From NCBI GenBank assembly GCA_023128595.1, contig JAGMDR010000188.1, positions 1 to 47,743 on the forward strand: a DNA stretch of 47,743 nt, read 5' to 3'. Position 1 is the stretch's first letter. Each line of letters begins with the position of its first letter. This DNA is from Planctomycetota bacterium (GTDB lineage: Bacteria; Planctomycetota; Phycisphaerae; Sedimentisphaerales; Anaerobacaceae). Made by a program: the position numbers and the translations under genes. The notes under the pieces were generated by a model, which was not told where the DNA came from, did no database searches, and worked only from the letters and a program-made list of their open reading frames with translations. This document shows positions 4,187-29,640 of the stretch, piece after piece.

Positions 4187-6379
4187 CTATTCTTGTTCCA
4201 GCTTTTTCAACGCTTCGATAGCCTTTTCCCGCCACGTTCCGCTCAGGCCGCTGCGCACTAATGTTGCAAGAGCAATACGCTGGTTCTCCACGTCTGCGAT
4301 CCGGCGATAGGCTTCAGCAAGCAGCCAATAAGCCTCCGCCTCGAAAGGGGCGCCCTGACCGCAATCGAGGGCCACTCTCAGCGGTCTTATGGCTGTATGG
4401 TGATTGCCCCGCAGGGTCTCCAGCTTGCCCAGCCAGAACAGAGTCTGCCCTCGCGGCATGTCCGCCGGAAGCTGCTCGTACCACTCCCGTACAACCACCA
4501 TCGCTTCGTCAGCTCGACCGTCTTGGATTAGCTGTTCGATGCGCTCCGGAAAGGAACCAATTTTTGCAGCGCGGACCGGCTGTGGGATGATCGCCTCGGC
4601 CAGGGCTTCGGCGGTTCGATAATCCTCCACCGCCTGGTCGATCTTGCCGGCACACAGGTGCGCATCTCCTATTGCGATGGTGGCGTCGCGAAAGGCGTGT
4701 TTGAACCGGCCGCTCGATATGTTTTGCGGGGCGAGAGTTTTGGCTCGAAGATATTCCTTTTCCGCAGTTTGAACGTCGAGCCGGTCTATGCCGAGGTGGC
4801 GAATCAGACGCGCCATTACCTGCATTTTTGCGGCGGGTTCCCGGGACAGATCAAGGGCGGCCCGTAAATGCTTTGTTGCATCAGGCTCAGGAATATAACG
4901 CCAGGCCACTTCGGGTTTTCCGGTGTCCGCCGCCAGAAGCAGGTGGGCATCGAGACGGTCGGCCTCGGATGTATCGGCCCGCTCGAGAACCATCAGTGCG
5001 GTTTCCATCGCCGCTTTCCTTTCGCCCGTTTCCTCGAAGAAGTTCGCCAGCTCAACCAGCATCGCAGCCGGGAGTTTTGCACGGTCGTAACCGGAGACCA
5101 ACGGCTGATAATCCTTGTATTGACCTGCTTTGAATCTCTCGCTGAGATGTTCGATTGGAAAAACATCAAGCGGCCGGATACGTTCGACTTTTCGCCCGGC
5201 AGGATCGGCAGCGGTGAGTTTCACTTCATAAGAACGGCCGGCCAACAAAAACACGTGGTCCGTCGCAGTACCGCGGGCACGCTGGCCGTCACCGAAATCC
5301 CATTGAACGGACCAACGGTTCCAATCGATGGGTTCTTCTCCCGCATCGGCACTGAAACGGTAACGGGTATACTGCCCCGAAGGTCTCTTATCAGGCCAGA
5401 GGCTGTCGAGAAGCTCAATTCGCGGCATGACGGTGCGGCCTGCACCCTGGCGTTCATATCGCTGCACCGCAGCCCGGTGCGGTTGAGGGAACAGGCCGTC
5501 GGGGATACCGATATAGTGCGCAGCCCCGGGCGGCTTATAACCGAGAAAGGCAACCTGGTAGAGCAGCACCTCTTCATGGTAGTATTCAATGTAATGCAAA
5601 CCGGCCGTGAGGTTGTGTTCTGCGTTTTTCTGGCCGAACTTGCCGCGTTGTTCGGTGTGTCTGCCCGGCCAATGAACCAATTCGGCCCCGTCCAAAAAAC
5701 TGAAGCTGCTTTCATTCGAGGCCGTGCAAAAACCGTAATCACCCGTGCGGGGCAGACGAATCCAACCACGATACATACTGATGAAATAGTCTGAGTCGCC
5801 GAAGGGATTTAGCCCATCGCTTATATTGTTGTGATAATCCGCACCGTCAAGGCCGGCGGATTGTTCGATAAGTTTCGTCAATTCATCGATAGAATTCGGG
5901 TTGGCGGCGTCCCGGGGACGGCGCATCGTTGTCAGTACGAGCCCGGCTTTAGGGACCCAACCTCCTGCCGCCGGTCCGGGTTTGGGCGCACCGGCGCCGG
6001 GTCGCTGTTCGGCAATCGCCCGCATGGGATCCACATTCGGATCCGACCTGCCGAAGTAAACATAAAAGTTTTCCTCGACGCGGCCGCATCGCAAACTGAT
6101 GAGCGTATCGCGTCGAGCATCGTGGAAAGTGATTTGATAGGGAACAGGCCTGCCGGCGCCGTCAAAAATGCGGTAGTCTCGCCCGTCTTCGAGTGCCGTG
6201 CCCGCGTGACGGATGCGCACGGCGGCCACATCAACCTTTGCCTTGTTTGAAGCTGCCTTGACCACGGCCCGATAAGGCCAGTCGGGCGCATGCCACGGCA
6301 CGCGCGCCGATGCCGTCAATACAATAGACAGCACGCCAAGCAGGGCAGAAGCCACATTTATTGTTCGTCGAAAGCTCAT
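4187..6379 (-). CDS. Exported PA14/PKD/TPR multidomain protein
   Basis: This 730-residue protein has a signal peptide (hydrophobic 8-24, likely cut after ASA). A DUF2341-like beta domain spans about 35-115, ending in YVYFG. A PA14-like region spans about 195-300 (YRGWIRLPRTGDYGF, LDG, LHYIEYYHEE). A PKD-type domain at about 340-400 carries the hallmark WDFGDG at 360-365. From about 420 to the end are helical repeats of TPR type (FFEETGERKAAMETALMVL, DAHLCAGKIDQAVEDY, YWLLAEAYRRIADVE). PA14 and PKD domains usually bind glycans or act as spacers outside the cytoplasm; TPRs bind proteins. It sits 16 bases after a giant membrane protein of the MoxR/VWA module, suggesting it is an envelope partner. 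Domain calls are by eye. Confidence 0.75.
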   Translation of the reverse strand: MSFRRTINVASALLGVLSIVLTASARVPWHAPDWPYRAVVKAASNKAKVDVAAVRIRHAGTALEDGRDYRIFDGAGRPVPYQITFHDARRDTLISLRCGRVEENFYVYFGRSDPNVDPMRAIAEQRPGAGAPKPGPAAGGWVPKAGLVLTTMRRPRDAANPNSIDELTKLIEQSAGLDGADYHNNISDGLNPFGDSDYFISMYRGWIRLPRTGDYGFCTASNESSFSFLDGAELVHWPGRHTEQRGKFGQKNAEHNLTAGLHYIEYYHEEVLLYQVAFLGYKPPGAAHYIGIPDGLFPQPHRAAVQRYERQGAGRTVMPRIELLDSLWPDKRPSGQYTRYRFSADAGEEPIDWNRWSVQWDFGDGQRARGTATDHVFLLAGRSYEVKLTAADPAGRKVERIRPLDVFPIEHLSERFKAGQYKDYQPLVSGYDRAKLPAAMLVELANFFEETGERKAAMETALMVLERADTSEADRLDAHLLLAADTGKPEVAWRYIPEPDATKHLRAALDLSREPAAKMQVMARLIRHLGIDRLDVQTAEKEYLRAKTLAPQNISSGRFKHAFRDATIAIGDAHLCAGKIDQAVEDYRTAEALAEAIIPQPVRAAKIGSFPERIEQLIQDGRADEAMVVVREWYEQLPADMPRGQTLFWLGKLETLRGNHHTAIRPLRVALDCGQGAPFEAEAYWLLAEAYRRIADVENQRIALATLVRSGLSGTWREKAIEALKKLEQE

Positions 6380-6395
6380 TCTTATGGTGCGGCAA

Positions 6396-9300
6396 TCATT
6401 CTCCGGCTTCGGTGCTTAGGGCCTTGTAATATGCCGCTACTATGTCCTCATAGCCGGCAGGTAAGGCCTGCTGGGAGCCTGCGATTATTTTCTGACGCAT
6501 ATCCGGCGGCAAGTTTTGAGCTTTTTGCAGGGAGATGCTCACTGCCTGGTCTATCCGGCCGTGGGTCTGGCGAAGAGCATCGAGCGCCATTTTACGCTTG
6601 CGGGCCGCGTCATCGTAACGCAGATCGCGGTAGTCCTGCTCGGAACTTTTCATCAATTCGATCGCTCGCTGGACACTTCCAAGACCTCTGCCGCGGTAAC
6701 TGAGCTCTCTTGCAACGCGCTGGGCCTTTTCTCGCAGAATCGCCTGGTGCTGAGCCAGGCGGTCCATATCCTTGACGAAGTCGGGCGGATTGCCGCCCTG
6801 GAGGCCCTGCTTGCCGCCGCCGGTCTTTTTCCCTCCGCCGGTGGCTCCTCGCGGATCCAGTTGTTTCTCGGCCTTGGGCACTCCTGCTTCATAGGGTTCA
6901 CTGGTCAATCTCGCCGGGGTGGCTCGCCCCTCAAGAGCTCGCGAGGTATCACCAACCATTTGTCCGCTGGATCGGCCTCGGCGACCCGAACCGGCTCGCC
7001 CGGACATCTCGCTGGCGTTGGGAAGCCTGTTGCCCGTTTTGCCGACCGCGTAGAAGGAGCTGATTGGTCCGTCTTCGATACCCCAGCCTGCCTGCATATT
7101 CCCGCCCCAGGCACCGGTTATGTCGTCTGCGCCTTCGTCAAAATCCTGCATATCCTCAATAAGGTCACCGATCATGTCCTGCAGGCTGGAGGGCAGCATC
7201 GCCTCGGGGACCTCGAAAATGCCTTCGACCGGCTCTTCCATCACCCAGCGGGTGAAATCGGCGGTATCCGGCATCCACATCTCGAGGTCCTCGGCCACTT
7301 CTTCCGCCAGGGCCTTGGCCCCCTCCTCAATCGGTGTGGCAATTTCGGTCCTGGGCGGAGTCGCCTGTTTTTCTATCTCTTCGAATATTGTGCTGAAGTT
7401 GTCGGCCAGGTAATCATCCGCGACGAAACCATGAGGGAGCTTGGCAATTGCATCGACTGAATCCTTGAACCATTTTTTCCAGCGGTCCAGCCGGTGCTCT
7501 ATATCATCCATCGTCTCGAGATTCTCACCGGTAAGCTCATCCTCGCCGCGATATCCGGGCATCTTTTCATAATCGGCCTCGATTCGCTTCAAGTCGTTGA
7601 GGAACTTATCCAGGTCCTCGGCAAGCTTTGCGAGCACACCTGTTGCCTTGGCGTGCTCAATTGGCTCATCCTTTTTCAGTTTCTTGAGGTGCTTGCGGAC
7701 CTGCTCACTGCGATTCAGCCGCATCAGCAACCCCTCCAGACTCCCGGTAATTGCGTCCTGGATAGGCAGCGACTGATTCGCAAATACTCTTCCGGCATCG
7801 AGATCGCTCTGGTCTCGATAGTTTTCAAGAAGTCTTATGACCTCCGCCATCGGACCCGATGACAATCGATTCAGCTCGGCGATTATCGAGCGAGCGCCGA
7901 ATGCGTTGCGCTGCATTATCTGAGCAAGCTGCTGCGTCTGCCGACGGATAAGGCTCTGGCGATCGATCAGGCCCTTCGCAGGTTTGGGCTCGGCCGCTTC
8001 GGTCCGGTTGAGACGCTGGAGCCGAATAAGCTCTTCGATCACCGCCGCATAGTCGTAAAGCTGTTTCTCCATAAGCACCGCCGCCTGTTCGGCAGTAAGC
8101 ACGATGAGATAGAACTTGCGGGTCTGGGCCTTGCCCGGGCCTTCGGAAAACCCCTCGAAACCCGGGTTGCGGTCGAGCGCCTCGGCCCAGTACTGCAAAC
8201 GGTCACCGCCTTTGAGTCCAAGCTGCGCCATCGTTCGTGCAAGGTCCAGGTCGAGACGTTTTTGCGGAGGCCCTTCGTTGGGCCAGGTCCCAATTATCTT
8301 TGTCTGAGTATCGTCGTTGACCTTGCCGAGCATGGTCACCGGGCCCATGCCCAGGTCGTCCTGAGCGGCAATAACGAAATCCACCGACGAACCAGGTCGC
8401 TGCCGCAGGTCACGGCCCGGCCTGGCAAATGCAATAGCAGGCGGCCCATCTCGTTCCAACGTAATCGTATAGGTGGTGGGCATTTCCAGCTCGTACCCCT
8501 GGTAATCTCTCAATTGAATTCTGTATGTGCCGGCCTTGCTCAGCGTGACAGCTAATCTCCAATCAGGCGTGGCACGGGCATCCTGCCCGTGTTTTCCAAT
8601 CATCGGCAGGATGCCGATGCCACTATCGTTCATACTAAAGGTCATCTGCTCCAGCGGTTTGTTGGCCTGGATTGTCAATGTCGCCTGCGTTCCCGGCAGT
8701 CCACGTAGATGGCCGTCGAAATCTTCAACCGTGCGGTCCTTGAGGCCGCTGTAAGCGGGATAGCTGTAAGTAACTGTCATTGACTCGATTCGCGGCCTTC
8801 GGTCCACGGCGATTTGGAAGTTTTTGCTGCGGGCATCCCCTGCTGTAATGTGAAATTCCAGCGGGCTTTCAACCGCGCCGAAGCTGTGGCTGAAGGCGCC
8901 GCCGCCTGCTGCCTTCATACGAATCCTGTGCTGTCGATCATGGACGTCGTCCCAATGTAAGGTTGCCTCACTCGGGATGCGGCCGGAAGCGGCGGCCTTC
9001 ACGGTCAGCGCGGCGCCTTCGAGCAGTCGTCGGCCGGGCTCGACTTCCACAGACAAGCTGGTCCACGTGAAAGGCGGTATATCGGCTGTGGGCAGGAGGA
9101 TTCTCAAGAAACTTGTCCGCGCAGCCGGACCCGCCCAGGTCCCATAGCCGGCCGCGACCAGGAGAACGACAAAGAGGGCAACAGCATTTCGACGCAGGAT
9201 CGGGCTTACGACCGCTTGTCCGGGGTCAACTTCGCCGGCGGCATACATGCCGTCGGCCACAATGGCCTCCACCAACTTTGGAGCGGGGGGAGATTTTTCC

Positions 9301-9632
9301 CGACCCAATTGGATGGCGTTAATGAGTCTATTGCCTAATTGCGGAATTTCTCGCTCCATCAGGGCTGCGAAGAAGTCGTCGCTGTGCCAACCGACGGCAG
9401 GCTGGAGAATTCTGCGCCAAGCTGATGCTGCAAGTGTAAACCATAAGAGCAGAGCAAGCACCCACCGCACTAAGGGACCGAAGCCGGCAAGCTGGTCCAA
9501 AACAGTGAGCACGACCGCGACCGCCGTGAATACCGCCGCAGTCAAAATCAGGCCCTCAATCACCACCCGCGCACGCCATAATCGACGCACGAGTCGAACC
9601 TGTTCAAGAAGCTGCAAATAGGTCCCGTTCAT
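6396..9632 (-). CDS. Giant membrane/coiled-coil protein of module B (DUF4175-like)
   Basis: This 1078-residue protein starts at an ATG preceded by GAGG. Two membrane segments (about 28-48 and 54-70) are followed by a third near 150-170. Beta-rich repeats follow to about residue 440. A long charged helical region (about 480-760) comes next, then a glycine-rich low-complexity linker, and a final helical segment ending LPPDMRQKIIAG with AYYKALSTE. The architecture and C-terminal motif match the 1266-residue protein of module A, so the two are distant paralogues. The resemblance to DUF4175-type proteins is tentative. A palindromic repeat is inserted in frame at 8569-8623. It follows the second VWA gene by 10 bases. 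Its function is unknown; membrane scaffold or substrate clamp is a guess. Confidence 0.7.
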   Translation of the reverse strand: MNGTYLQLLEQVRLVRRLWRARVVIEGLILTAAVFTAVAVVLTVLDQLAGFGPLVRWVLALLLWFTLAASAWRRILQPAVGWHSDDFFAALMEREIPQLGNRLINAIQLGREKSPPAPKLVEAIVADGMYAAGEVDPGQAVVSPILRRNAVALFVVLLVAAGYGTWAGPAARTSFLRILLPTADIPPFTWTSLSVEVEPGRRLLEGAALTVKAAASGRIPSEATLHWDDVHDRQHRIRMKAAGGGAFSHSFGAVESPLEFHITAGDARSKNFQIAVDRRPRIESMTVTYSYPAYSGLKDRTVEDFDGHLRGLPGTQATLTIQANKPLEQMTFSMNDSGIGILPMIGKHGQDARATPDWRLAVTLSKAGTYRIQLRDYQGYELEMPTTYTITLERDGPPAIAFARPGRDLRQRPGSSVDFVIAAQDDLGMGPVTMLGKVNDDTQTKIIGTWPNEGPPQKRLDLDLARTMAQLGLKGGDRLQYWAEALDRNPGFEGFSEGPGKAQTRKFYLIVLTAEQAAVLMEKQLYDYAAVIEELIRLQRLNRTEAAEPKPAKGLIDRQSLIRRQTQQLAQIMQRNAFGARSIIAELNRLSSGPMAEVIRLLENYRDQSDLDAGRVFANQSLPIQDAITGSLEGLLMRLNRSEQVRKHLKKLKKDEPIEHAKATGVLAKLAEDLDKFLNDLKRIEADYEKMPGYRGEDELTGENLETMDDIEHRLDRWKKWFKDSVDAIAKLPHGFVADDYLADNFSTIFEEIEKQATPPRTEIATPIEEGAKALAEEVAEDLEMWMPDTADFTRWVMEEPVEGIFEVPEAMLPSSLQDMIGDLIEDMQDFDEGADDITGAWGGNMQAGWGIEDGPISSFYAVGKTGNRLPNASEMSGRAGSGRRGRSSGQMVGDTSRALEGRATPARLTSEPYEAGVPKAEKQLDPRGATGGGKKTGGGKQGLQGGNPPDFVKDMDRLAQHQAILREKAQRVARELSYRGRGLGSVQRAIELMKSSEQDYRDLRYDDAARKRKMALDALRQTHGRIDQAVSISLQKAQNLPPDMRQKIIAGSQQALPAGYEDIVAAYYKALSTEAGE
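8569..8623. repeat. REP-like palindrome inside a coding gene
   Basis: A 55-bp imperfect palindrome has arms GTGGCA at 8569-8574 and TGCCAC at 8618-8623. The inner arms are GGCATCCTGCC and GGCAGGATGCC. It lies inside the giant module B gene and on the minus strand encodes a peptide containing GILPM and HGQDARAT, keeping the frame open. Peptides of this kind recur, in my recollection, in many unrelated planctomycete and verrucomicrobial proteins because a REP-like element inserts into genes. The opposite strand gives the matching ARASCPC and GRMPMP pattern. Confidence 0.75.
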
Positions 9633-9642
9633 TTCTACTACC

Positions 9643-11919
9643 TCAGACTAACTGGTTTCTTCGCCGCACAATCCATTCAGTGCTCACCAGAATCAGAAAG
9701 ATTATGAAAAAGTAAGGAGAATTCCACAACTGGCTCATCTGCACCTTGTTGGTTACTCGCGGTTCCCTCGGCAGCGACCGGATGAGCTTCTCGACGGCGA
9801 GGTCGTCGCTGATCTGGGCGTATAGTCCACCGGTGGACCGGGCAATCTGCTGCATTACAGCGGTGTTGGGCGTCGGGTCCTCCAGCTCGATCCGAGAACC
9901 TTCCACCAAGAACTCAGTCTGCTCGTTGGCAAGGTCGGCATCGGCGCCCAGAAGCCTGACTGTAACCTGGAAGCGTCCGCCGCGGTCCGGAAAGTACGCC
10001 GCGGTCCAGCGATTAACATTGGCCGGGTCGGAAGTCGGGGCAAGCGGGATGCTCCGGTCGTCAGGAGTGATTACGGTCAATTCCACTGAGGTTTTTTCAC
10101 CTTCCTCGCTCGGCAGCATTACGGCCGGATTGCGGTTGACCGTCATAGTTACTCGGCTGCCCCGCTTATACACAGCGGCGTCGGTCGATATCCGCAGAGC
10201 GGTTTGCTCCGAGGCGGTCTCGCGATGTGCCAGCCAACGAACCATCTGAGACCAGAATCGCACGTAAAGCGCATCAGACTGACCGGAAAGCCTGAGAAGT
10301 CGAGACCAGCGCCAAGTTGTGTCGGATGTTAGAACCACAACAACTCCCTTTCCGTAAGGCTGACTCGCAAGCACGATGTATCCTTCCCGGCTTGAGATGT
10401 TCGGGTTGGGCTGTGGGTGTCGTGCCAGAACAGTAGCTCCGGGCTTGGCCTGTTTGACAGCCACAATGCCTTTGAGCTCGGGAAGGACATTCCACAACCG
10501 GGCGTCGCGAGCCATATCTCCGGTTATGTTCAACGCGGGATGGCGTCGGCCCTCGTATGTGAGATCGAAGCGGAAGGGCTGATCGATCTGTCCGATGCCG
10601 CCCTCGGCAATCTCAACGGGCAGCAAGTCGGCCAGGGCGGTGCTGCTTAGGCCGTGCTCCGAGAGGTTCTGGTAACCGCCCAGGACCATCAGGCCTCCCC
10701 CGGCCTCGACCCAATCTCGAATGGCAGCGTAAGACCGCTCATCGATCATACGCGACTCGAAGTCGCCCAGCAATACGACGTCGATTTTCTCGAGTCGCTC
10801 CGGGCTGAGCAGCTCTGAGGCGGCCATGACGCCCGCGATAGAGACCTGCTGTGGGCCGGCGGCACGCACGAAACTAATCAAATCCACATCGGGGTCCTGG
10901 CCGAGACGTTCCCGAAGGAACTTGCATTCGGCCCGCAGCACACCCTCAACGTAAGCCACACGAATCGGCTTGGCTTCCACCCTTAGCTTAAACATCGAGG
11001 CGTTGTTAACTGTTGTGCGTTCGTCCTGCTGAGGGGGCAGATGGGCCGTCAAGACGAAATCGCCGGCCTCGGCAGGTGCGTAGTTGAGGTCAATGATCTT
11101 TTCAACCGTCTCGGCGTCAAAGTGTACGTATTCGCTCACGAGCGGTGCTCCAGCCCTTTCTATGTATAAAGGAACATCCATCTCGCCTTTGCCGTCCTTG
11201 CGCACCAACACTTTTATCGGTACGGTGTTGTGGATCAGCGTTCGGGCCGGACAGTCCACCGAGACAACCGCCAGGTCAACCGCCCTTTCATCGCTGCCGG
11301 ACAATGAGGGGAAGCTAAGCGTGTATGTGGGGAGGGGGTATTCCCGGAGGACAAGATAATTCCCTCTGCCGGTGGTGTCTCGACCGTCTGATATCAGCAG
11401 GACGCCCGCTGCATGTCGGCCTCGAAGCCGCGCGCCAACAGACCGCATCGCCCGAACCAGGTCGGTCTGCTCGAGGCTCGGCTCGTCGGGGAGTTCTCCC
11501 GAGCTCAGCTCTTTTCCCGAGATGTCAAACAGCCGCACATCAAATCGTTCGCGCATTTCTTTGGCTACCGGCGATTGCCGTATCCAATCCCGCAAAAACT
11601 GATATCGATTTACCCAATCACCGGGACGAATCTGCTGCGATAGTGACATGCTCTGAGAATTGTCGATGATGACGCCCAACTGCGGGGTCTCGGTTTGTTC
11701 GATGAGGTGCTGCCATGCCGGCTTTACCAAAGCGGCAAGTAACGCCAGGACCCCAAGGGAACGAACAATCAAAAGTGACCACGCGATCTTTCTTCTGCTG
11801 AGGCGAAAGATGTCGCGATAGGTCAGGGCGAGAAAAACCAGACATCCGGCAGTGAGCAGGACCCAGAACCACGCCGGGTCAAATTTTTGCAGCACCAGGT
11901 TAGAGAGAATATTTCTCAT
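9643..11919 (-). CDS. Membrane VWA protein, second of module B
   Basis: This 758-residue inner-membrane protein begins at an ATG that overlaps the stop of the upstream BatA-like gene by four bases (ATGA), so the two are probably translationally coupled. Membrane segments lie near 17-33 and 46-66. A VWA domain follows, with the metal-site motif D-x-S-x-S at D86/S88/S90. A central region carries WVEAGGGLMVLGG, resembling the glutamine-amidotransferase-like domain found in Bat-type proteins. A C-terminal membrane helix (about 733-750) ends in an arginine-rich tail. Bat/MoxR-associated VWA proteins are thought to be clients or partners of MoxR ATPases. It is the positional and architectural counterpart of the 805-residue module A protein. 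Confidence 0.8.
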   Translation of the reverse strand: MRNILSNLVLQKFDPAWFWVLLTAGCLVFLALTYRDIFRLSRRKIAWSLLIVRSLGVLALLAALVKPAWQHLIEQTETPQLGVIIDNSQSMSLSQQIRPGDWVNRYQFLRDWIRQSPVAKEMRERFDVRLFDISGKELSSGELPDEPSLEQTDLVRAMRSVGARLRGRHAAGVLLISDGRDTTGRGNYLVLREYPLPTYTLSFPSLSGSDERAVDLAVVSVDCPARTLIHNTVPIKVLVRKDGKGEMDVPLYIERAGAPLVSEYVHFDAETVEKIIDLNYAPAEAGDFVLTAHLPPQQDERTTVNNASMFKLRVEAKPIRVAYVEGVLRAECKFLRERLGQDPDVDLISFVRAAGPQQVSIAGVMAASELLSPERLEKIDVVLLGDFESRMIDERSYAAIRDWVEAGGGLMVLGGYQNLSEHGLSSTALADLLPVEIAEGGIGQIDQPFRFDLTYEGRRHPALNITGDMARDARLWNVLPELKGIVAVKQAKPGATVLARHPQPNPNISSREGYIVLASQPYGKGVVVVLTSDTTWRWSRLLRLSGQSDALYVRFWSQMVRWLAHRETASEQTALRISTDAAVYKRGSRVTMTVNRNPAVMLPSEEGEKTSVELTVITPDDRSIPLAPTSDPANVNRWTAAYFPDRGGRFQVTVRLLGADADLANEQTEFLVEGSRIELEDPTPNTAVMQQIARSTGGLYAQISDDLAVEKLIRSLPREPRVTNKVQMSQLWNSPYFFIIFLILVSTEWIVRRRNQLV

Positions 11920-14273
11920 GCCACGTTGCCCTTGGGTTTCAGTTGTTGTTGTCGAGCGGATGCATAATCCGGCGCCGAAAGTACGTCGCGGTGGCTCATC
12001 GCGTCTGCAACTCTTGCCGCTCGACGTTTGGACAAACGGCTCGCCAACAACGGCTCAACGAGCGCCACGATCAGGGCCGCACTTAGAAACAAATCCCACA
12101 AACCGTACCCATGACGGGCCAGGACAATTGCTTCCTTGACCGATTCGGGATTGTCCACACAAACCACAGAGACATCAGGACCGGCAATTGTCTCCAAATC
12201 TTCTTTCTCAAGGTATTGCAGTTGAGATTCTTCGGGTGGAATGTTGGTGGCGAACATCATACGCGGTTTCGCTGTCTCGGCCTCCACGGCAAGACGCACA
12301 ACGTAAAGCCCCGCCTGCCGGGTATCGGTGAAGGCATTAGGCGCCGTTGGGTTTGATTCCCTGGGATCCGACTGCCGGTATCCTGCCGTACCGTCAGGCT
12401 TGAAGATCACAAGTGTGCGCAGTTGAGTGACGGAGGCCGGGAGCTCGACCACCTGTCCGGTGCGTAAAAAATTTGCCCGCTGCGTTCCGGGCTGTCCCAA
12501 ATAGGAGACAATCCGATAGAGCCACGGCAGGTACGCCGCTTCAAGCGGGAAGTTGGACCAGTCGCGGTCTATTGACGAGACGAACAACATCACGCGACCC
12601 TGGCCGAAGCGGCTTTCGGTCAGAAGCGCCTTTCCCGATGGGCCCCGCATCAACACATCGGCGCTGCCGGGGTCAACTTCGTATCGTTTTGTGAACCGAA
12701 CATTGGTAAGGCTTCCAAGCTTACCCTCGTTGAAACCCGCCAGCGCCGGATGCCTGCCGTTCAAAGCCGCGATGAAACCTGCATCCCGGATGTCCTCTGA
12801 AAAGATCCGGTCTTCACTGCCGGCCGGTTCAATCAACCTCAACAGCTTTCCCGGCAGAAGGCCGCCGTGCAGTCGATGACTGCCGAGGCATCTGTTATAT
12901 GACTCGGCGTTAACGCGATCTCCCAGGGTAATCAGAAGGCTGCCGCCCTGGTCAACGTATTTCTCCAGGGCCTCCAGGGCCTGTGGCGAGAGCTCGGCCA
13001 CATTGGCCATCACCGCAACGCGGTATTGGGCCAGCCGCTGCATTGTGACTTGCTGAGGCGTTATCTGTTCGACCGGAATCGGTGCTTTTGCCGGCGCTGC
13101 GTCTGTGGCCGCGGCGGGTTTGTTCTCCGCCAGCACGGTCAGCGCAAGACGAAAAAAGAAGAATTCGTCCTGAGCAGCCAATGTGGATGGAGCACCGTTA
13201 ATTGCCAGCAATCGCATGTGGTCGTCCACGTATAGAGCGAAGTGGCGCTGGTTGTCCGAGGTCAGCATCTCGGCCTCGGCACCGCTCAAGACCACTTTTC
13301 CTCCGTGCCAGCCGGCTTTGGCGAACCTGTGTCTGAAGCGAATGAGCCGGGACCGCCGGCCTTCAAGATCGATATTCCTTTGGCTTACGGTCTGCCCGCC
13401 AATAACAAGGCTCACCACGGCACCGCAAGGCTCCGACCCGTGGTTCGTCAGGAGCGTACGGAAAGTGAACGGTACGGATACCATCGGTCGCGCCGTTGAG
13501 TATTGGAGGGCATCGACGGAAAGATTGGTGATATTTCCTGCATTTGGCCGGGTGGCAACGAGAAAGAGGACGCCGGCGATTCCTAATGCCGGATCATTAC
13601 CGGCCGGCAAGGCGGTTTCCTGAAAGTCGCTGAAAACATAAATCTCCTTGGCCCCTCCGGGCGTCGAAGAACGACCCAGCGCGCCGATGCTCTCTGCGCC
13701 GGCTCTAATTGCCCACTCAACATTCGTTGCCAGATCGGTGAGCGATACTTCACGGATGGCATCTCGAACCGCCTCCATATCGCCGGTTGGCCGCTCAAAA
13801 AGGATTTTCGGCCCCGCTTCTCTCTCGCCCGCCAGTATTACCGTGGCCTTGTCGCCGCGCGAAGGAGACAGCTCGTCGATGAGCGAAATAGCGCCGGCCT
13901 TGGCTCTATCCAGCAGAACTCCCCGTTCGGAAAGGGCCGCCATTGATGCCGAATCGTCCAGTATGATTGCTATGTGTCTTGCGTTTTCTCCGAGGCCGAC
14001 TAACTTCGAGAGGCCCGCGGCCTGGCCCGAGGGGGCACGGATAAGTGGCTGGGCCAACGCCAGCACAAAAAACGCCAGCAGGGCCATTCGAAGTATCAGC
14101 AGCAGCAAATCCTGGATTCTCGCCCGGCGAGCAGAGCGAACGAAACGCTCATCGAAGAACTGTGTCGTCGAGAAGAATATCTTCTGCCTCCGGCGCGACC
14201 GCCGCAGATGCAGAACGAGCGGAATACTTACGGAAACCAAGCCTATCAAAAACCAGGATGCCAAGAACGTCAT
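11916..14273 (-). CDS. BatA-like VWA membrane protein of module B
   Basis: This 785-residue protein has the N-terminal BatA arrangement. It shows a membrane helix at 4-22, a basic stretch, F-F-D-E-R, a second helix at 54-76 ending LAQPLIR, and then a VWA domain with D106/S108/S110 as the D-x-S-x-S metal-binding motif. Further on, YVDQGGSLLITLGDRVN marks an amidotransferase-like fold, and a C-terminal helix lies near 735-752. It lies 42 bases after the DUF58 gene and overlaps the following VWA gene by four bases. The order MoxR, DUF58, BatA, VWA is the classic Bat-type arrangement. The likely site is the inner membrane with the VWA domain on the periplasmic side, as inferred for the family. 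Confidence 0.85.
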   Translation of the reverse strand: MTFLASWFLIGLVSVSIPLVLHLRRSRRRQKIFFSTTQFFDERFVRSARRARIQDLLLLILRMALLAFFVLALAQPLIRAPSGQAAGLSKLVGLGENARHIAIILDDSASMAALSERGVLLDRAKAGAISLIDELSPSRGDKATVILAGEREAGPKILFERPTGDMEAVRDAIREVSLTDLATNVEWAIRAGAESIGALGRSSTPGGAKEIYVFSDFQETALPAGNDPALGIAGVLFLVATRPNAGNITNLSVDALQYSTARPMVSVPFTFRTLLTNHGSEPCGAVVSLVIGGQTVSQRNIDLEGRRSRLIRFRHRFAKAGWHGGKVVLSGAEAEMLTSDNQRHFALYVDDHMRLLAINGAPSTLAAQDEFFFFRLALTVLAENKPAAATDAAPAKAPIPVEQITPQQVTMQRLAQYRVAVMANVAELSPQALEALEKYVDQGGSLLITLGDRVNAESYNRCLGSHRLHGGLLPGKLLRLIEPAGSEDRIFSEDIRDAGFIAALNGRHPALAGFNEGKLGSLTNVRFTKRYEVDPGSADVLMRGPSGKALLTESRFGQGRVMLFVSSIDRDWSNFPLEAAYLPWLYRIVSYLGQPGTQRANFLRTGQVVELPASVTQLRTLVIFKPDGTAGYRQSDPRESNPTAPNAFTDTRQAGLYVVRLAVEAETAKPRMMFATNIPPEESQLQYLEKEDLETIAGPDVSVVCVDNPESVKEAIVLARHGYGLWDLFLSAALIVALVEPLLASRLSKRRAARVADAMSHRDVLSAPDYASARQQQLKPKGNVA

Positions 14274-14315
14274 TTTCTATTGACTCTCGTTAGCTGTCAT
14301 TGTCTTGTGTTCTCA

Positions 14316-15251
14316 TCAGATTGCCGTTCGAGCTGCTTTTTGGTGCTGGCGCCGCCTGAGGTACGTTCCCAGGAACGTACCGAACGACTGGCTCGTGTCC
14401 GTCAGGGAGTAGCTTATCTTGCGTGAGAGGCAGCCTTTTCGAATTTCACCGAGGTAAGCATCGAGCTGCTGCAGGTAATGGTTGCGAATGGCATCGGCAT
14501 CGGAGGCGACCGTCTGGCCGGTCTCGATGTTTTCGATCTGGCCTGCATCGCGGAACGGAAAGGTCAGCTCGGCCTGGTCGAGGACGTGCAGAACAACTAC
14601 CTCGTGTTTCTTGTGACGGAAGTGGCCCAGGGCGTCCAGAAGGCTATGAGGGCTCGCCGTATCACCCCCGAACAAATCCGAGAGTATCACAATCAACGCG
14701 CGGCGATTCATCGTTTCAGCCAGCTCGTGGAATGTCCGCGACAGGTCGGTCTTGCCCCGGGCCTGCACGTTTTCCAGTTGTTCGAGCACGGTCCTCAGAT
14801 GTCCCCGGCCCTGGCGCGGGGGGATGTTCAGTCTGACACGGTCCCCATAGACAATAAGCCCGAATGCATCGTGCTGAATCATCATCAGATAAGCCAGCGT
14901 TGCCGCCAGATAGCAGGAGTATTCCAGCTTGCTCATCGGACCGGTGTAGCTGTAACCCATCGATGCCGAGGCGTCCAGCAACAGATAACAGCGTAGATTT
15001 GTCTGCTCTTCGTATTGCTTGACGTAGAGCTTGTCTCGCTTTGCGAAAACCTTCCAATCGAGATGGCGAGGATCGATGCCCGGTGTGTACTCACGGTGCT
15101 CGGCGAACTCGACCGAGAAGCCGCGGTGCGGGGAGCGGTGTTGTCCGGAAAAGAGGCCCTCGACCACCAGGCGTGCCGCAAGGCCGAGGTTCTTTAGCTT
15201 TGCCAGAACTGCAGGGTCAAGATATTTCGTGCTTTTCGGGGTTTCAGCCAT
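14316..15251 (-). CDS. DUF58 protein of module B
   Basis: This 311-residue protein of the DUF58 family normally accompanies MoxR ATPases. Visible family features are the GLFSG / HRSPHRGFSVEFAEHREY segment (about 32-55), PGIDPRHLDWKVFA, and a degenerate VWA fold whose metal motif is intact at D93/S95/S97 (LLLDASASMGY). No membrane helix is present, so it is probably cytoplasmic or bound to the membrane partners. It begins five bases after the MoxR stop codon, so the two are certainly co-transcribed. It is a paralogue of the 297-residue DUF58 protein in module A, with the same motif order. Confidence 0.9.
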   Translation of the reverse strand: MAETPKSTKYLDPAVLAKLKNLGLAARLVVEGLFSGQHRSPHRGFSVEFAEHREYTPGIDPRHLDWKVFAKRDKLYVKQYEEQTNLRCYLLLDASASMGYSYTGPMSKLEYSCYLAATLAYLMMIQHDAFGLIVYGDRVRLNIPPRQGRGHLRTVLEQLENVQARGKTDLSRTFHELAETMNRRALIVILSDLFGGDTASPHSLLDALGHFRHKKHEVVVLHVLDQAELTFPFRDAGQIENIETGQTVASDADAIRNHYLQQLDAYLGEIRKGCLSRKISYSLTDTSQSFGTFLGTYLRRRQHQKAARTAI

Positions 15252-15256
15252 AACGA

Positions 15257-16327
15257 CTAATCCGCTGTCAGCTCGTCGTATTCCTCCGGTGTCGGTTCGC
15301 TTACCTCATCGACGAGGCGTTGGATGATGTGATCGGCGTCGATGCCCTGTGCCTCGGCGTGGTAGTTTGGAAGGACGCGATGCCGCAATACGAGGGCGAC
15401 CACCTGCCTGACGTGCGCGGTTGTGACATTGTATTGGCCGTGCAAAGCGGCCCAGGCCTTGGCCGCCAGGACCAGGTACTGGATCCCCCGCGTGCCAATT
15501 CCCCACGTGACCAGCTCCTTGGTGAACTCGGGGGCAATTTTGTCGTCGGGGCGTGTGGACCGACCGAGCTTGAGACAATACAGGACAACGTGGTCGGAAA
15601 CCGGAATCTGACGGATTATCTGTTGAAGATTCAGAATGTCCGACCCGTTGAGGACTTTGCTCAGGTCGGGCTCGGTGTCTATAGGGTTGGACTTGACGAT
15701 TTTCATCTCCTCTTTCGGAGCAGGGTAGCCGACTTTGAGCATGAACATAAACCTGTCAAGCTGGGCTTCAGGCAAGGGGTACGTCCCTTCCTGCTCGATC
15801 GGATTCTGTGTCGCCAGGACGAAGAAAGGCCGGGGAAGGTCGTAAGTGACCCCGCCGCTGGTTACCTGCCGCTCCTGCATCGCCTGGAGCAAAGCCGCCT
15901 GGGTCTTTGGCGGAGTGCGGTTGATTTCATCAGCAAGAAGTATGTTCGCAAATACCGGCCCCTTGATAAACCGAAAGGCCCGCTGGTTGGATGCGGGGTC
16001 CTGTTCGATGACCTCGGTCCCGGTTATATCAGCGGGCATCAGATCGGGCGTGAACTGGATACGGTTAAACTCCAGATCGATGGCGCGTGCGATTGTCTGG
16101 ACCATTAACGTCTTGGCCAATCCCGGAACACCCACCATCAAGCAGTGGCCGCGCGCGAATACCGCCGTCAGGAGACCATCGATAACACCCTCCTGTCCGA
16201 CAATGACCTTGCCGATTTCCTCTCGCAGCACCTGGCGGGCCTCGCCCAGGCGTTGCAACGCCTCTACGTCAACGTCATTAATCGCTTCGATTGAACCGCC
16301 TGGTTTACCGGGTTTTGAATGAGCCAT
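15257..16327 (-). CDS. MoxR-family AAA+ ATPase of module B
   Basis: This 356-residue MoxR ATPase is an AAA+ chaperone-type motor that acts on or through VWA-domain partners. The nucleotide-binding motifs are clear: the MoxR form of Walker A, GVPGLAKT (66-73), Walker B LLADE (130-134), and sensor 1 ATQNP (172-176). The [15 protein letters not shown] signature lies at 91-105. The start ATG at 16327 follows GAGGAAGG. It is the third gene of module B, 73 bases after the double-DUF4159 gene, and is followed at once by DUF58. It shares most motifs with the 342-residue module A copy and differs from it in the C-terminal lid and tail. Confidence 0.93.
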
Positions 16328-23502: not shown

Positions 23503-26500
23503 TCACTTCTCCAGCTCTGTGCTCAGGTCACGGTAATACGCTTCGATCAGCGGTTGATAAGCTTCGGGCCCGCGCTCCTGCATGCCCTGAATAAGCGGCT
23601 GGCGCAGCCACGGCGGCAAGCGGTAGAGAGCGGCGCCCTCAACCGGGGCAATATCATCGTCGGCGTAACCTACGTTGATGATTCGGCCGGTCCGAATAGC
23701 CATATCACCCCGCCCGCCCCCCCTTCCCATACGGTTGCCCGACAAGAAGAGACCTCCGTCCGCCTCCGTGTTTCTGGCCATCCAGCTTGACATACCTAAA
23801 GCCTCTCGCAAGTCCGGCGAGCCGAGCATCTGAGTCAAACCGCTGGTTTGTGACGTTCCCGTTCTCGACATCAACTGATCCAACTGCCCAATCGTCCGTG
23901 ACAACTGGTCCTGCACCCCCGTCAGATCGTTACTGTTTGCAGTCAAGGTTTGCTGCAATCTGTCCTGATGGTCCATAAGCATTTGCCGGGGCGTGGTACT
24001 ATCGGCTGCCGAAGATGGCCTCGGCCTTGTATCCCGGTCGGCGAATCGAGGATCGACCTGCGAGCGCTGCCGTGCAGTCGGAACATCAACCGGTCGATCC
24101 CACCAATCAAGCTCATCGATCTCCATGAGCTCTCCGATCTTGTCCTTCAAGGCATCAACATCCGGCCCGCCCTCTTCTTTGGGGTCCTCCTCCGGAGTAT
24201 CGGCCTCTACGGGCATAACTTCCACCGGCCGTCCGGGAGGGACCCAGGGAGCCGGCGGCATCGTCTGCTCATCCGAAAGCATCTTTTCCCTGCGCTGCCG
24301 CAATAGCTCCTGAAGTCGGTTACTAAGAGCCAGGGCCTCGGGGTCGAGCTCCTGTTGCTCGCCGGAAATTTCATCAAGCTGTTTCGCCTCGGCGGTCGCC
24401 GCCTGCCGGCGAAGGGCGTCAACCTCTTGCCGCAATTGATCGAGGAGCTCATTTTGCGACTGCAGGTAACTGTTGAGGCCCTGCAGCTGTTCCATTGCCT
24501 GGCGGCCCTGAAGCCGCGCCATCAGACCGCTAAGGCTCTTTTGGGATTCGGTCGGCGAGGCGGCAAGCGCCCGGCGGGCTGCGATGATCTCTCGAAGCTG
24601 CTGCTGGAGTTGAGAAAGCTCCCGCTTTTGTTCCGGCGTCAGCTCCTGCAAATCTTCAAGCCGTTTCATTACATCTTCGCCGAGAAGCTCGGCGCCCTCC
24701 GTAGAAAACATCCCTGCCACCTGCCGGGCCCGCAAAGCCATCACACGAAGGGCTTCGGCCTCGGCCGGCAGAATCAACATTGACTCATCGGCTTCGGCCG
24801 CTTCGTACAGACGCTCGGAAAGCTCCAGCAGCTCCTGCCGTTCTTTCTGTATCTCGCCGTACATCTCCGTGAGCCGCCGACGCTGCTCCTCGGTCATTCC
24901 CTCACTCCAGCCGCTGATAGTACGCTTAATGTCTTCGGCGGTCATGACCGTCCCGTCAGGATTGAGCAGCGTTACGGTCCCCGATTCATCCATCTCTACC
25001 TCGAAATCCTCAGGCAGAGCTGCGATCTCTTCGACAGCACCGGCGGAAAGCTGTCCCTGGACTTCAACCAGCTCCTGTATATTGTCGAGAATGCCGGTCA
25101 GGGCATTGTCCACTCGGTCCATTTGGCTATTGTTCTCGCGCGGTGCATCATCGAGGCTGATACGAAACGTTTCGCTCGTTCCCTTTTGCCCTTTGAGGTC
25201 CTGAGCGAAGACGCGATAATAGACCGGCTGACCGGGCTGAACGTCCAGGGCGTTCATATCCAGCGAAGTTATGACCTTACGATTGACCTGCGGCTGATCG
25301 TATCCGGCGAGCTCGCGGCGCTCGTCAAGATCATTGGGACTCGCTCCTGTCTGGATAAAGACATCGGCAACTCCGAAGTCATCGCAGGCGCGAACAATAA
25401 GAGGGACGGCCTGAGGCTTCGGCAGCGCAAGATTCCTGCCCGGCCGCTCGACAAGAACGGAAGGGTGCTGGTCTTTGGCCGGGATTATCGGGATCGCTTT
25501 CATCGCCGAGCTGGGATGACCCAGCCGGTTGCGGAATTCAATAGTCAAATGCCGCTCGGCTACCGGGATTGAGCCAATCCATCGGTCGCTTGATATGTCA
25601 AATCGCATGGGAACCGATTCCACACGCTCCAGGTTGGTCTGCTTAACCGTGCGTTTTGTCTGCCTCAAGGCGCCCGCCCGGTCGAAGAGAATCGTCCCTT
25701 TGTCGATGCTGAATTGCAATCCCTCCAACGTGATCGGTGCGTTGGGGTCTTGTCCTTTGAATTTGTCCGCCGGTATCTCCAGACGGGTCCAGTCGCCGGG
25801 CTTTGGCAGCCGACCGGCATAGACTCCCAAAACCTCGGCGGCGGGCGGCTTTGCAGAGAACCAATCCTCCAAGTCCGGCAGCTTTCCCCCTTGACGGAGC
25901 TGTTCGGTTTGGTCGGCGCTGAGCGGTGAAGATGAAGAATCCCATATCAATTCGTATGTTTTGCCTGCGGTCAGGGCTCGAACTCTCAGACGGTCCGGAG
26001 ACTCCTGCGGTTCAAGCCGAGTGTAGAGAAACAGCGATTCATTGTGGGAAATGCTCAGCCGATGCAGCCGGGTACGAAAACCGTATGGCCCACGGGACCA
26101 ATTAAATGTATGGGCCTGGCTGCCGCTATAAGTCTGCTCCTCGATCCAGCGCCATTTGCCCATCAGCTCGGCATCGCCCGGCACATCGTCGTCGAACCAA
26201 ACGGACTCAGCAGCCTCGACCTGCTCTATGGCCTGCTTGTCGGCCCGAAACAGGTGTATTTGGCCCTGGGCCACATCGCCGCTTACGGCCGCCGCCAGAT
26301 GAATAGTAGAGCCTCCCGGAGCGCTGATCTGACGGGTAAGCTCGCTCACCTGGCGCCGCTGGGGGATTTTCATATAATCGGGCAACTGAATCTCAGCGGA
26401 CATTTCTTTGACTATCGGCCTGCGAATCACCGTTATGCGTTTCGGCACAGTCCACGTTCCCCCGCCAATCACCTGGTAGTCATACGAGGTATTAACGCAG

Positions 26501-27273
26501 CTAAGCGTGAAGGCAAACTGCTTATTGCCTTCGCGCTGCATCGGGTAGGTTGAGTACTCTCCTTTGTCGGTCCGAAGCCGCAGCGTGAGATTCTCCAGTT
26601 TGTCCGGCTCGACGGTCGCCCAAAGCCGCACAGGTTCACCAAAAAGCACCGAGGTATCTCCCGGATACGCCTGCAGTCTTACCCAAGTGACCGGCGCAAT
26701 GGGTCTGGTCGGCATAAGCAGTCGCATCGCGGCAGCACGGACACGCTCGTAAAGCAACAACGAAAGAGCTGAGGCGATTAGTATTGTCGTGGCCGCCACC
26801 AAGGCGACTCTTCGCACGGGCCTGGGATCGGCTACGGTCTCAACACGGTAGCCGGCCAAACGCTCGGCGGTCTGTTTAATCAGACGGTCTTCCAGAGGCC
26901 TGATCCGACTGTCAAGGATTCTTTTGCGGGCGCGCAGGTCTATGACAGTAACGAGGCTGTTGTGCATCCTGCCTATTATGCCCTCGATCAAGAAGGCAAT
27001 CTGCACAAGCCTCATGGGCCTGATGGCCGGCCAGAGGACCAACAGCATAAGCGTCACCAGAACCAGAACCAGCAAAACCGAGCACGCTGAAATTCGCAGC
27101 CACACGGGAAAGGGCGCCAGGATATCGAGAACTGCACCCGCCGTTAGCCCGCCGACACCGGCGATAATCATCAGGCCAAAACCCAAAAGCACCGCGTTGC
27201 GGCGTATTCGGCGGCGAGTCGATACCACCAAATGCTCCAGTCGTTCAGATGTTTTCCGGGTCGATTCACTCAT
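23503..27273 (-). CDS. Giant membrane/coiled-coil protein of module A (DUF4175-like)
   Basis: From ATG 27273, with GGTGG five bases before it, the protein has 1256 residues. A TTG at 27303, overlapping the BatA stop codon, is possible but lacks a ribosome site. Two or three membrane segments in the first 190 residues are followed by beta-rich repeats (about 200-600) and a long glutamine/glutamate-rich helical region (about 750-1050, with PEQKRELSQLQQQLREI). The C-terminus ends LPPWLRQPLIQG with EAYYRDLSTE. This end motif and the overall plan are shared with the module B protein. It has no recognised catalytic motif. A scaffold spanning the membrane into the periplasm is the simplest reading. 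The DUF4175 resemblance is tentative. Confidence 0.7.
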   Translation of the reverse strand: MSESTRKTSERLEHLVVSTRRRIRRNAVLLGFGLMIIAGVGGLTAGAVLDILAPFPVWLRISACSVLLVLVLVTLMLLVLWPAIRPMRLVQIAFLIEGIIGRMHNSLVTVIDLRARKRILDSRIRPLEDRLIKQTAERLAGYRVETVADPRPVRRVALVAATTILIASALSLLLYERVRAAAMRLLMPTRPIAPVTWVRLQAYPGDTSVLFGEPVRLWATVEPDKLENLTLRLRTDKGEYSTYPMQREGNKQFAFTLSCVNTSYDYQVIGGGTWTVPKRITVIRRPIVKEMSAEIQLPDYMKIPQRRQVSELTRQISAPGGSTIHLAAAVSGDVAQGQIHLFRADKQAIEQVEAAESVWFDDDVPGDAELMGKWRWIEEQTYSGSQAHTFNWSRGPYGFRTRLHRLSISHNESLFLYTRLEPQESPDRLRVRALTAGKTYELIWDSSSSPLSADQTEQLRQGGKLPDLEDWFSAKPPAAEVLGVYAGRLPKPGDWTRLEIPADKFKGQDPNAPITLEGLQFSIDKGTILFDRAGALRQTKRTVKQTNLERVESVPMRFDISSDRWIGSIPVAERHLTIEFRNRLGHPSSAMKAIPIIPAKDQHPSVLVERPGRNLALPKPQAVPLIVRACDDFGVADVFIQTGASPNDLDERRELAGYDQPQVNRKVITSLDMNALDVQPGQPVYYRVFAQDLKGQKGTSETFRISLDDAPRENNSQMDRVDNALTGILDNIQELVEVQGQLSAGAVEEIAALPEDFEVEMDESGTVTLLNPDGTVMTAEDIKRTISGWSEGMTEEQRRRLTEMYGEIQKERQELLELSERLYEAAEADESMLILPAEAEALRVMALRARQVAGMFSTEGAELLGEDVMKRLEDLQELTPEQKRELSQLQQQLREIIAARRALAASPTESQKSLSGLMARLQGRQAMEQLQGLNSYLQSQNELLDQLRQEVDALRRQAATAEAKQLDEISGEQQELDPEALALSNRLQELLRQRREKMLSDEQTMPPAPWVPPGRPVEVMPVEADTPEEDPKEEGGPDVDALKDKIGELMEIDELDWWDRPVDVPTARQRSQVDPRFADRDTRPRPSSAADSTTPRQMLMDHQDRLQQTLTANSNDLTGVQDQLSRTIGQLDQLMSRTGTSQTSGLTQMLGSPDLREALGMSSWMARNTEADGGLFLSGNRMGRGGGRGDMAIRTGRIINVGYADDDIAPVEGAALYRLPPWLRQPLIQGMQERGPEAYQPLIEAYYRDLSTELEK

Positions 27274-27299
27274 TGTTCCACCGTCATAAACGCTTCCTC

Positions 27300-29624
27300 T
27301 CAAGCACTTTTTGTGCTCGATGAGACCTGTTGCTCGGCCGCACCCGAAATTCGAAGCACATGTCGGATCGACCGTCTAACTAAGCCGCCTTCGCCCGGCG
27401 ACGGCATCGAGCCCGCCGCAATGGGTACAAGCTCGCGACGAGGGCGAAGTGTCGCAACAAAAAACTCAGCCCCGATGACCACAAAACACAGCCAAATCAG
27501 TGTTCTCCAGATCTCACGTTTGCCGGTGAGCTGCTCGGCCAGAATTGTATCATCGGGCATGCTGCGAAGATACGCCAATTCCGATGCGCCCGCAAGAATC
27601 TCACGGATTTGCTCTTCGCTCATCGTCGTGAAATCCGCCTTTTTGTCTGCAAGGTTTACCGCAAAGCCCAGCTCCACCCGCTCAGGGACCTCCTCTGAAT
27701 GGGGGAAAATGTGATATGTATAGAAACCCTTTTGGTCAGTCTGTAACATGGCTCCGACCAGGCCTCTGCCGCTGCGACGAAGCTGTATCTTGTGTGGTTT
27801 GCCCGTGGGGTCTATTGCCTGGACACGCGCATCCGACCACCGGTCGGTCAATCGGATAGGCGCCGGCTGCGAGGGAGCGACCGCCGCCGGTGCTGCGGCG
27901 TCTGCACGCCTTTGCAGGTACGCCACCGTCCGCAACAGCATCGGCACGAATTCCGGCTTCAGAGGCAGATTGGACCAATTAGCGGTGGCGGCAAAACCAG
28001 CCACTATTACCTTGCCTTCGCCGAGTGGTATTTCGGCAAGTATCGGTGTCCGGTTTGCCAGCCGCATCAGCACGTTCGGACGCAATACGGGCTCGGCCTG
28101 GTCTTTTGCCCTCTCTTGACGCACCTCAATAGGAAAGTAGCGGTAAAACTTGACCGTACTGAAGTAGTCGGCATCTTCGCCCGCGAAGACATTGAGCACC
28201 GGATGGCCCAGGTTGATATTGCCGACAGGCATGAAGTTTGATTCGTCTTGCTCGTTACCCACAGGCTGGGCCAGCCGTATCTGCGTTGTCATCGGCGCAT
28301 CCAGCAGATGCTGGTTGTAGTCCTCGGCTCTTGAGTGTGCACCGGGCAGAATAAAGACGCCGCCGCCGGACTCAACGTAACGCCTCAACATTGCGGCACG
28401 CTCGCCGTCCATTGGAACATCCGCAAAAACCGCCACCTCTGCCGCATTGAGCATTACGTCGGTCAACTTATCATCCTTGACAGAGATAACATTAATCGCC
28501 GCTGCCAAAAGACTTTCGTCAAGCCCAAATGCGTCCTTGGCTTTTTGAGGCGATTTTAAGGCCGCCTTGACATAAACTTCCGCAGAACGCGCGTTCGTCT
28601 CGTCGGTGGGCCCCGTGACTAACAGAACGTCAAGCTTTTCCGCGACATTGAGGCAAAAGAGAAATGTATTGTCCTCCGGATACGCGTCGGCTGGAAGCTG
28701 GAATCGACCTTTGATCAGGCCTGAACGGTTCGGCGTTATGCTGACCGACCGCGTTATCCGCTGTCTCGGCTCAAGAGTCAGATTAATCTGTCTTACCAGC
28801 TCATCGTCCAGCATAACCGACAGCACAGTTTCAGTTGGTTCCTCCGCCGAACTATTAACCACCGTAGTATCGAGCAGAACCGGAAGCCCTTTGATGACGC
28901 GGTCGGCCTCCGGCGGCTCACCCACCACGGCGACATTCCGGACAGGCTCGGCTGTACCCACGTTCATTACCACCACTGATGTCTGAGCGTCCAGGTTCTC
29001 CAGAACCGGATGCTCGGCAAGCGCCGACCAGGAGCTTCGAAGGCCGTTGGTCAGCAGATATACCACCCGTCTGCCGTGCGCTTTCGACGAAAAAGCCTCC
29101 CGGATTGCGCCAGGCAGGTCCGCATTGCCGGTGTCGGTACGCAGGTTGTCCATGCGAGGAGCTATCCGCTCGGGATGTACGGCGAATCCCTCCACCAGCA
29201 CCTGAGGCCTTTTTCCCGCACGTATGACCTTGAGGTGGTCATCCCGAACAAGCATATTTATTATTGTCCCGGCGAGGCTGCAGGCGCGTTCAAAACTGGT
29301 AGTTCCGCTGCTGCGCACAGCCATAGACGGTGAGGCGTCAATGACGATTACCACATCCTTTCCGTCCCCACCAATGCCCAGGAAGGCAAACCGGTGAACA
29401 ACCGGCCGGGCCAGAAAAAATACGACCAGCCCCACGAAAGCCAATCGCAGAATCATCACAAGAAACTCCAGCAGACGCGCACGCCGGCGCTGCTGTACGT
29501 AGCTGTCCATGAGGAAGCGGAACGTGCTCAGCTCAATCGTGCGCATGCTGTGCAGCGTTATCAGATGCAGCAGAATCGGCACCAGTGCCAATGGCAGAAA
29601 CCACAGCAATTGCGGATTAACCAT
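27300..29624 (-). CDS. BatA-like VWA membrane protein of module A
   Basis: This 774-residue protein starts at ATG 29624 after a strong GGAGG. BatA-type features are an N-terminal helix (5-24), T-F-R-F-L-M-D, a second helix (53-75) ending LARPVV, and then a VWA domain with D96/S98/S100 (VIVIDASPSM). A distal YVESGGGVFILPGAHSRAEDYN segment matches the amidotransferase-like region seen in the module B protein, and a C-terminal helix lies near 725-745. It lies 16 bases after DUF58. Membrane location and pairing with the MoxR of this module are inferred from the family. Confidence 0.85.
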   Translation of the reverse strand: MVNPQLLWFLPLALVPILLHLITLHSMRTIELSTFRFLMDSYVQQRRRARLLEFLVMILRLAFVGLVVFFLARPVVHRFAFLGIGGDGKDVVIVIDASPSMAVRSSGTTSFERACSLAGTIINMLVRDDHLKVIRAGKRPQVLVEGFAVHPERIAPRMDNLRTDTGNADLPGAIREAFSSKAHGRRVVYLLTNGLRSSWSALAEHPVLENLDAQTSVVVMNVGTAEPVRNVAVVGEPPEADRVIKGLPVLLDTTVVNSSAEEPTETVLSVMLDDELVRQINLTLEPRQRITRSVSITPNRSGLIKGRFQLPADAYPEDNTFLFCLNVAEKLDVLLVTGPTDETNARSAEVYVKAALKSPQKAKDAFGLDESLLAAAINVISVKDDKLTDVMLNAAEVAVFADVPMDGERAAMLRRYVESGGGVFILPGAHSRAEDYNQHLLDAPMTTQIRLAQPVGNEQDESNFMPVGNINLGHPVLNVFAGEDADYFSTVKFYRYFPIEVRQERAKDQAEPVLRPNVLMRLANRTPILAEIPLGEGKVIVAGFAATANWSNLPLKPEFVPMLLRTVAYLQRRADAAAPAAVAPSQPAPIRLTDRWSDARVQAIDPTGKPHKIQLRRSGRGLVGAMLQTDQKGFYTYHIFPHSEEVPERVELGFAVNLADKKADFTTMSEEQIREILAGASELAYLRSMPDDTILAEQLTGKREIWRTLIWLCFVVIGAEFFVATLRPRRELVPIAAGSMPSPGEGGLVRRSIRHVLRISGAAEQQVSSSTKSA

Positions 29625-29640
29625 AAGACAACGCCTCCAT

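Follow-up and report, generated by a model that had tools for sequence, protein, structure and literature searches.

The palindrome and its host gene

The window analysed here is a stretch of 47,743 nucleotides from a Planctomycetota bacterium. On its minus strand, at positions 6396..9632, lies a gene for a membrane-type protein of 1078 amino acids with Ig-like beta domains (modelled over residues 184-440), in a cluster with genes for MoxR ATPase, DUF58, BatA/VWA and GATase1-like proteins. A preliminary description of this DNA called the gene giant; at this length it is large rather than giant. The protein matched no named family in Pfam or NCBIfam, and no relatives of it were found in our search of the genome-contig collection. 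There are two clusters in the window (4187-16327 and 23503-30534) with BatA/VWA, DUF58 and large beta-domain proteins, and of the two only the former has a MoxR ATPase.

Within the gene, an inverted-repeat scan, the copies elsewhere in the genome and a covariance model delimited an REP dimer at 8569..8623 (minus strand; 55 nt, with a genome consensus of 56 nt). Its parts were assigned from the sequence and the alignment of copies. The first REP unit, GTGGCATCGGCATCCTGCCGATG, occupies 8601..8623 (-), with a GTGG tag at its outer end. The spacer ATTGGAAAA, at 8592..8600 (-), has one base less than in the ten other strong copies, and the second unit, CACGGGCAGGATGCCCGTGCCAC, lies in inverse orientation at 8569..8591 (-), again with the tag at its outer end. 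The codons at 8568..8621 (-) encode GIGILPMIGKHGQDARAT, residues 338-355 of the host protein. The location and length first proposed for the palindrome were thus exact, as was its placement in frame within the open 1078-residue ORF.

The palindrome is the strongest inverted repeat of the whole window. As a single strand it folds with -19.1 kcal/mol as DNA (z -5.2) and -36.4 kcal/mol as RNA (z -6.5), values that none of 200 shuffles equalled in either case. A search of the genome found its paired core at nine sites and a reversed-pattern control at none.

Copies in the genome and in relatives

The genome is a draft of 4.31 Mb in 579 contigs and is 80% complete. With a covariance model made from the copies, and strong copies defined as those scoring at least 80 bits, we found 11 near-identical copies at 80-90 bits on 9 contigs; the next score was 63 bits or below. 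The suggestion that the palindrome is a REP-like mobile repeat is well supported by these copies. Ten of the 11 are 56 nt long and only the window copy has 55 nt: it equals two of the others (L019 and L022) minus one T in a run of three, and is otherwise identical. The 56-nt consensus, GTGGCATCGGCATCCTGCCGATG-ATTTCGAAAA-CACGGGCAGGATGCCCGTGCCAC, consists of two 23-nt palindromes around the 10-nt spacer ATTTCGAAAA. GTGGC tags point outward in most copies, and three copies (L010, L017 and L018) have GTAGC.

At least six of the 11 strong copies are not within a long ORF, and the set is in this sense mostly intergenic. The GTRG/GTGG terminal tag, the multiple scattered copies and the inverted dimers are those of the GTAG superfamily, and, judged by sequence, the layout of the dimer is that of GTAG-superfamily REPs. 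No consistent target-site duplication was found in the flanks of the 11 copies, so that the combination of terminal inverted repeats and target-site duplication that defines a MITE is not present. In the hisF gene described below, a gain of 57 nt with a 56-nt element leaves room for a duplication of at most one base.

Of 89 genomes of the family, 24 (this one among them) have weaker relatives of the dimer; in seven g31 genomes the matches on the two strands together number 13-57 per genome. At a stricter threshold, related elements were detected in 2 other genomes of a 149-genome sample of the phylum. A Chthoniobacterales MAG (L090) has both units with a different spacer. In addition, a single REP unit recurs inside a 66-bp tandem repeat (L015 and L016, contig C177), and the same genome has a second palindrome family, GTGGCACGGCCATCTTGGCCGTGTTTTCACGGGCTGGAAGCCCGTGCCAC (L027-L031, contigs C108 and C157), which is arranged in tandem on C108.

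In-frame copies in other genes

Three other genes of the genome contain the element with certainty. The cleanest example is hisF (L011:1140-2018, contig C49, minus strand), which has gained exactly 57 nt (19 codons). The insert is absent from the genes of all 23 relatives compared (75-91% protein identity); the enzyme is otherwise intact, and both sides of the insert align to solved HisF structures. The gene for NAD(P)H-hydrate dehydratase, NnrD (L021:1345-2319, contig C334, minus strand), is longer by exactly 66 nt (22 codons) than in 12 relatives, and its insert is a degenerate dimer, the left unit being the degenerate one, that carries HGQDARAT. A Gfo/Idh/MocA oxidoreductase gene (L012:921-2387, contig C69, minus strand) has an REP dimer in frame in a loop of variable length, which makes the protein some 12 to 18 residues longer, net, than in 10 relatives. 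The search for the palindrome and for HGQDARAT peptides that had been proposed thus found both elsewhere in the genome, the peptide in NnrD.

Together with the window gene, the frame is kept in four of four certain intragenic cases. The element is read in three ways: as GIGILPM...HGQDARAT in the window gene, as WHRHPADDFENTGRMPVP (or nearly so) in hisF and the Gfo/Idh gene, and as VARDELGGAGEHGQDARAT in NnrD. Such variety speaks against selection for a single peptide; it favours a filter by which insertions that break the frame are eliminated. Two further loci, L020 (near ExbD) and L023 (GspH/pilin leader), were left out of the intragenic count because a downstream start is likely. At L023:1017-1679 (contig C16, minus strand), an REP dimer lies just ahead of the prepilin-like start of a GspH-type protein, where an internal start may leave the dimer untranslated.

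The insertion site in homologues and in a predicted structure

The element is absent from all 46 homologous loci compared, which come from the family and the order; in a few instances two of these loci are fragments of a single gene, and the paralogue in the window is also among them. The opposite pattern, with the same sequence at this site in all orthologues and nowhere else in the genome, was not what the comparison returned. The paralogue (module A; 23503..27303, minus strand) lacks the element on comparison with the host protein, as the preliminary description had held. Where the host protein has the insert, the paralogue seems to have a far longer stretch, of about 130 residues from anchor to anchor, in a part of the alignment that is uncertain.

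Between the flanking anchor columns there are 23 residues in the window protein and 13-18 in 41 of the 46 homologous loci. The net gain is therefore about 5-10 residues, although the element covers 18-19 codons. The earlier estimate that the palindrome adds about 18 residues is too high as a net figure, as about 8-10 residues of the homologues are missing at the site. Two histories would account for this: a loss of some 8-10 codons, during the insertion or later, or a loop that was already shorter beforehand.

An AlphaFold2 model of host residues 184-440, built with 34 homologues, shows beta structure at good confidence (mean pLDDT 87), in agreement with the original placement of the HGQDARAT peptide in a beta region. 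The insert is predicted as a loop between two strands, with pLDDT 54-61 and almost no secondary structure. A model of the orthologue L073 based on that same set has two short strands (156-159 and 161-164) at the site, with a pLDDT of about 95. In these models, the element appears to have displaced a short beta hairpin that is present in the orthologue. That the hairpin was lost when the element inserted is an inference from homologues of at most about 30% identity; no same-genus genome with an empty site of the host gene was seen.

Interpretation of the insertion

We consider it highly likely that the sequence is a non-autonomous mobile REP dimer that was recently inserted in frame in the host gene and is tolerated as a surface loop. 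A mobile palindrome of two GTGG-tagged units, of the GTAG-superfamily type, would have entered the Ig-like-domain part of a BatA/MoxR-type membrane gene, probably moved by a RAYT-type HUH transposase. About 18 REP-encoded residues would have taken the place of about 10 homologue residues forming a short beta hairpin, with the missing codons lost in or after the insertion. The frame is open only thanks to a spacer one base shorter than in the other strong copies. The protein would be read through the element, tolerating a surface loop and presumably still working, and no selected peptide function is implied.

The possible replacement of the hairpin is the most unusual part. A stronger form of it is that the REP dimer replaced, and did not merely split, a conserved secondary-structure element of the beta domain, that the frame was matched through the loss of one base inside the repeat, and that selfish DNA is now part of a working domain. 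We regard this as a tentative proposal, with the odds somewhat against it.

The palindrome was originally described as domesticated or tolerated. Tolerance agrees with the data; domestication finds no support in them. It is improbable that selection has fitted the REP peptide to a structural or binding task in the host protein, even though the frame is kept and GIGILPMI stands at the position of a short beta strand of the homologues. The window copy is near-identical to the others and hence recent, and it differs from L019 and L022 by one deleted base, which leaves no adaptive change. Moreover, the reading of the element varies from gene to gene, and the insert, modelled with low confidence, looks like a floppy, unstructured loop. 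Tolerated selfish DNA fits these observations best.

The length of the window copy bears on a second alternative. When a 56-nt sister copy is placed in the present flanks, a stop appears at residue 357 of 1078, so the open frame depends on the one base by which the window copy differs from its sisters. Were the true length 56 nt, the gene would be disrupted or decayed, and its open frame would be due to a one-base sequencing or assembly error. The genome is a draft in many contigs and the difference is a single T in a run of three, as such an error would require. This reading is nevertheless very unlikely, because the error would need to have produced exactly the required frame, the ORF is uninterrupted, and homologous, to either side of the element along the entire gene, and the remaining intragenic copies that are certain in this genome likewise keep the frame. 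For an insertion tolerated in frame, the consensus is favourable, as five of its six frames are open, which makes in-frame survival easier. The one base may have been lost after insertion, as a repair.

A putative role at the RNA level, in which a transcript hairpin adjusts how strongly the cluster is expressed downstream of it, is about equally unlikely. REPs have been described as affecting mRNA stability, and the RNA fold of the palindrome is strong, but the hairpin lies midway in a translated gene, where ribosomes would unwind it, and the copies are scattered over unrelated genes and intergenic places. Finally, that the palindrome arose by chance or is native protein sequence of the host family has next to nothing to recommend it: the copy number already refutes it, the shuffled and reversed controls were negative, no homologue has the element, and we found no point in its favour.

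Comparison with known palindromic elements

REPs have been reported in Planctomycetes and Verrucomicrobia, and the description by Di Nocera et al. gives a GTGG tag for most of the GTAG-20 elements of Opitutus terrae (PMC3733652). Intragenic in-frame REPs are also known from that description, with genic dimers encoding 20-30 residues (PMC3733652). Compared by description, the element reported here resembles GTAG-20 in being a GTRG-tagged inverted dimer that is scattered through the genome, with some copies in frame in genes. Unlike GTAG-20, it has only 11 strong copies, of which one, at 55 nt, fits the frame. Its stem sequence probably differs from that of GTAG-20 as well.

Rickettsia palindromic elements (RPEs) are described as in-frame palindromes in unrelated genes, many of known function (PMC10969869, PMC3733652), and in this they are similar. 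However, RPEs are about 150 bp long and have a conserved encoded peptide, whereas the element here has 55-56 bp and a reading that depends on the gene, which sets it apart from RPEs. RPE-4 and RPE-6 belong to the CGTC superfamily, in contrast to the GTGG tag here. HGQDARAT had no match in a literature search.

Intragenic in-frame REPs are thus already published, from Opitutus and as Rickettsia RPEs, and the window case adds a well-documented example. A single genome offers several before/after comparisons (hisF, NnrD, Gfo/Idh and the window gene) of palindromes entering coding sequence in frame, and survival in frame is seen outside the classical Rickettsia case. The hisF case, a clean insertion made by nature in an enzyme that has been studied in depth, lends itself to direct testing. 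For annotation, it is relevant that where predicted proteins of such bacteria contain peptides such as HGQDARAT, TGRMPVP or GIGILPM, these are REP-derived.

RAYT genes and the movement of the element

Movement of REPs is ascribed to RAYT transposases in the same description (PMC3733652). In this genome (80% complete) we found no intact RAYT gene flanked by the window REP. There is one divergent RAYT-like gene, at 33 bits against a cut-off of 80 (NF047646), and no REPs lie beside it; the genome therefore differs from those with REPtrons in having no such locus for the window REP. The moving enzyme could be encoded in the missing 20% of the genome, or could have been lost.

RAYT genes abound in genus g31, with up to 14 matches per genome, and this genus is also rich in related dimers. 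Several RAYT genes of relatives are bordered by GTRGC-tagged palindromes whose layout is the same, most clearly at L213 and L219; no dimers of the window type were found beside the RAYT genes of relatives. From these sequence comparisons, RAYT-driven movement of the element is likely. At L213 and L219 the RAYT genes have GTAGCCCAGCCGCCCCCGGCTGGG and GTGGCACCCCCGCCC(T/C)CGGGGGTG palindromes on both sides, a REPtron-like arrangement.
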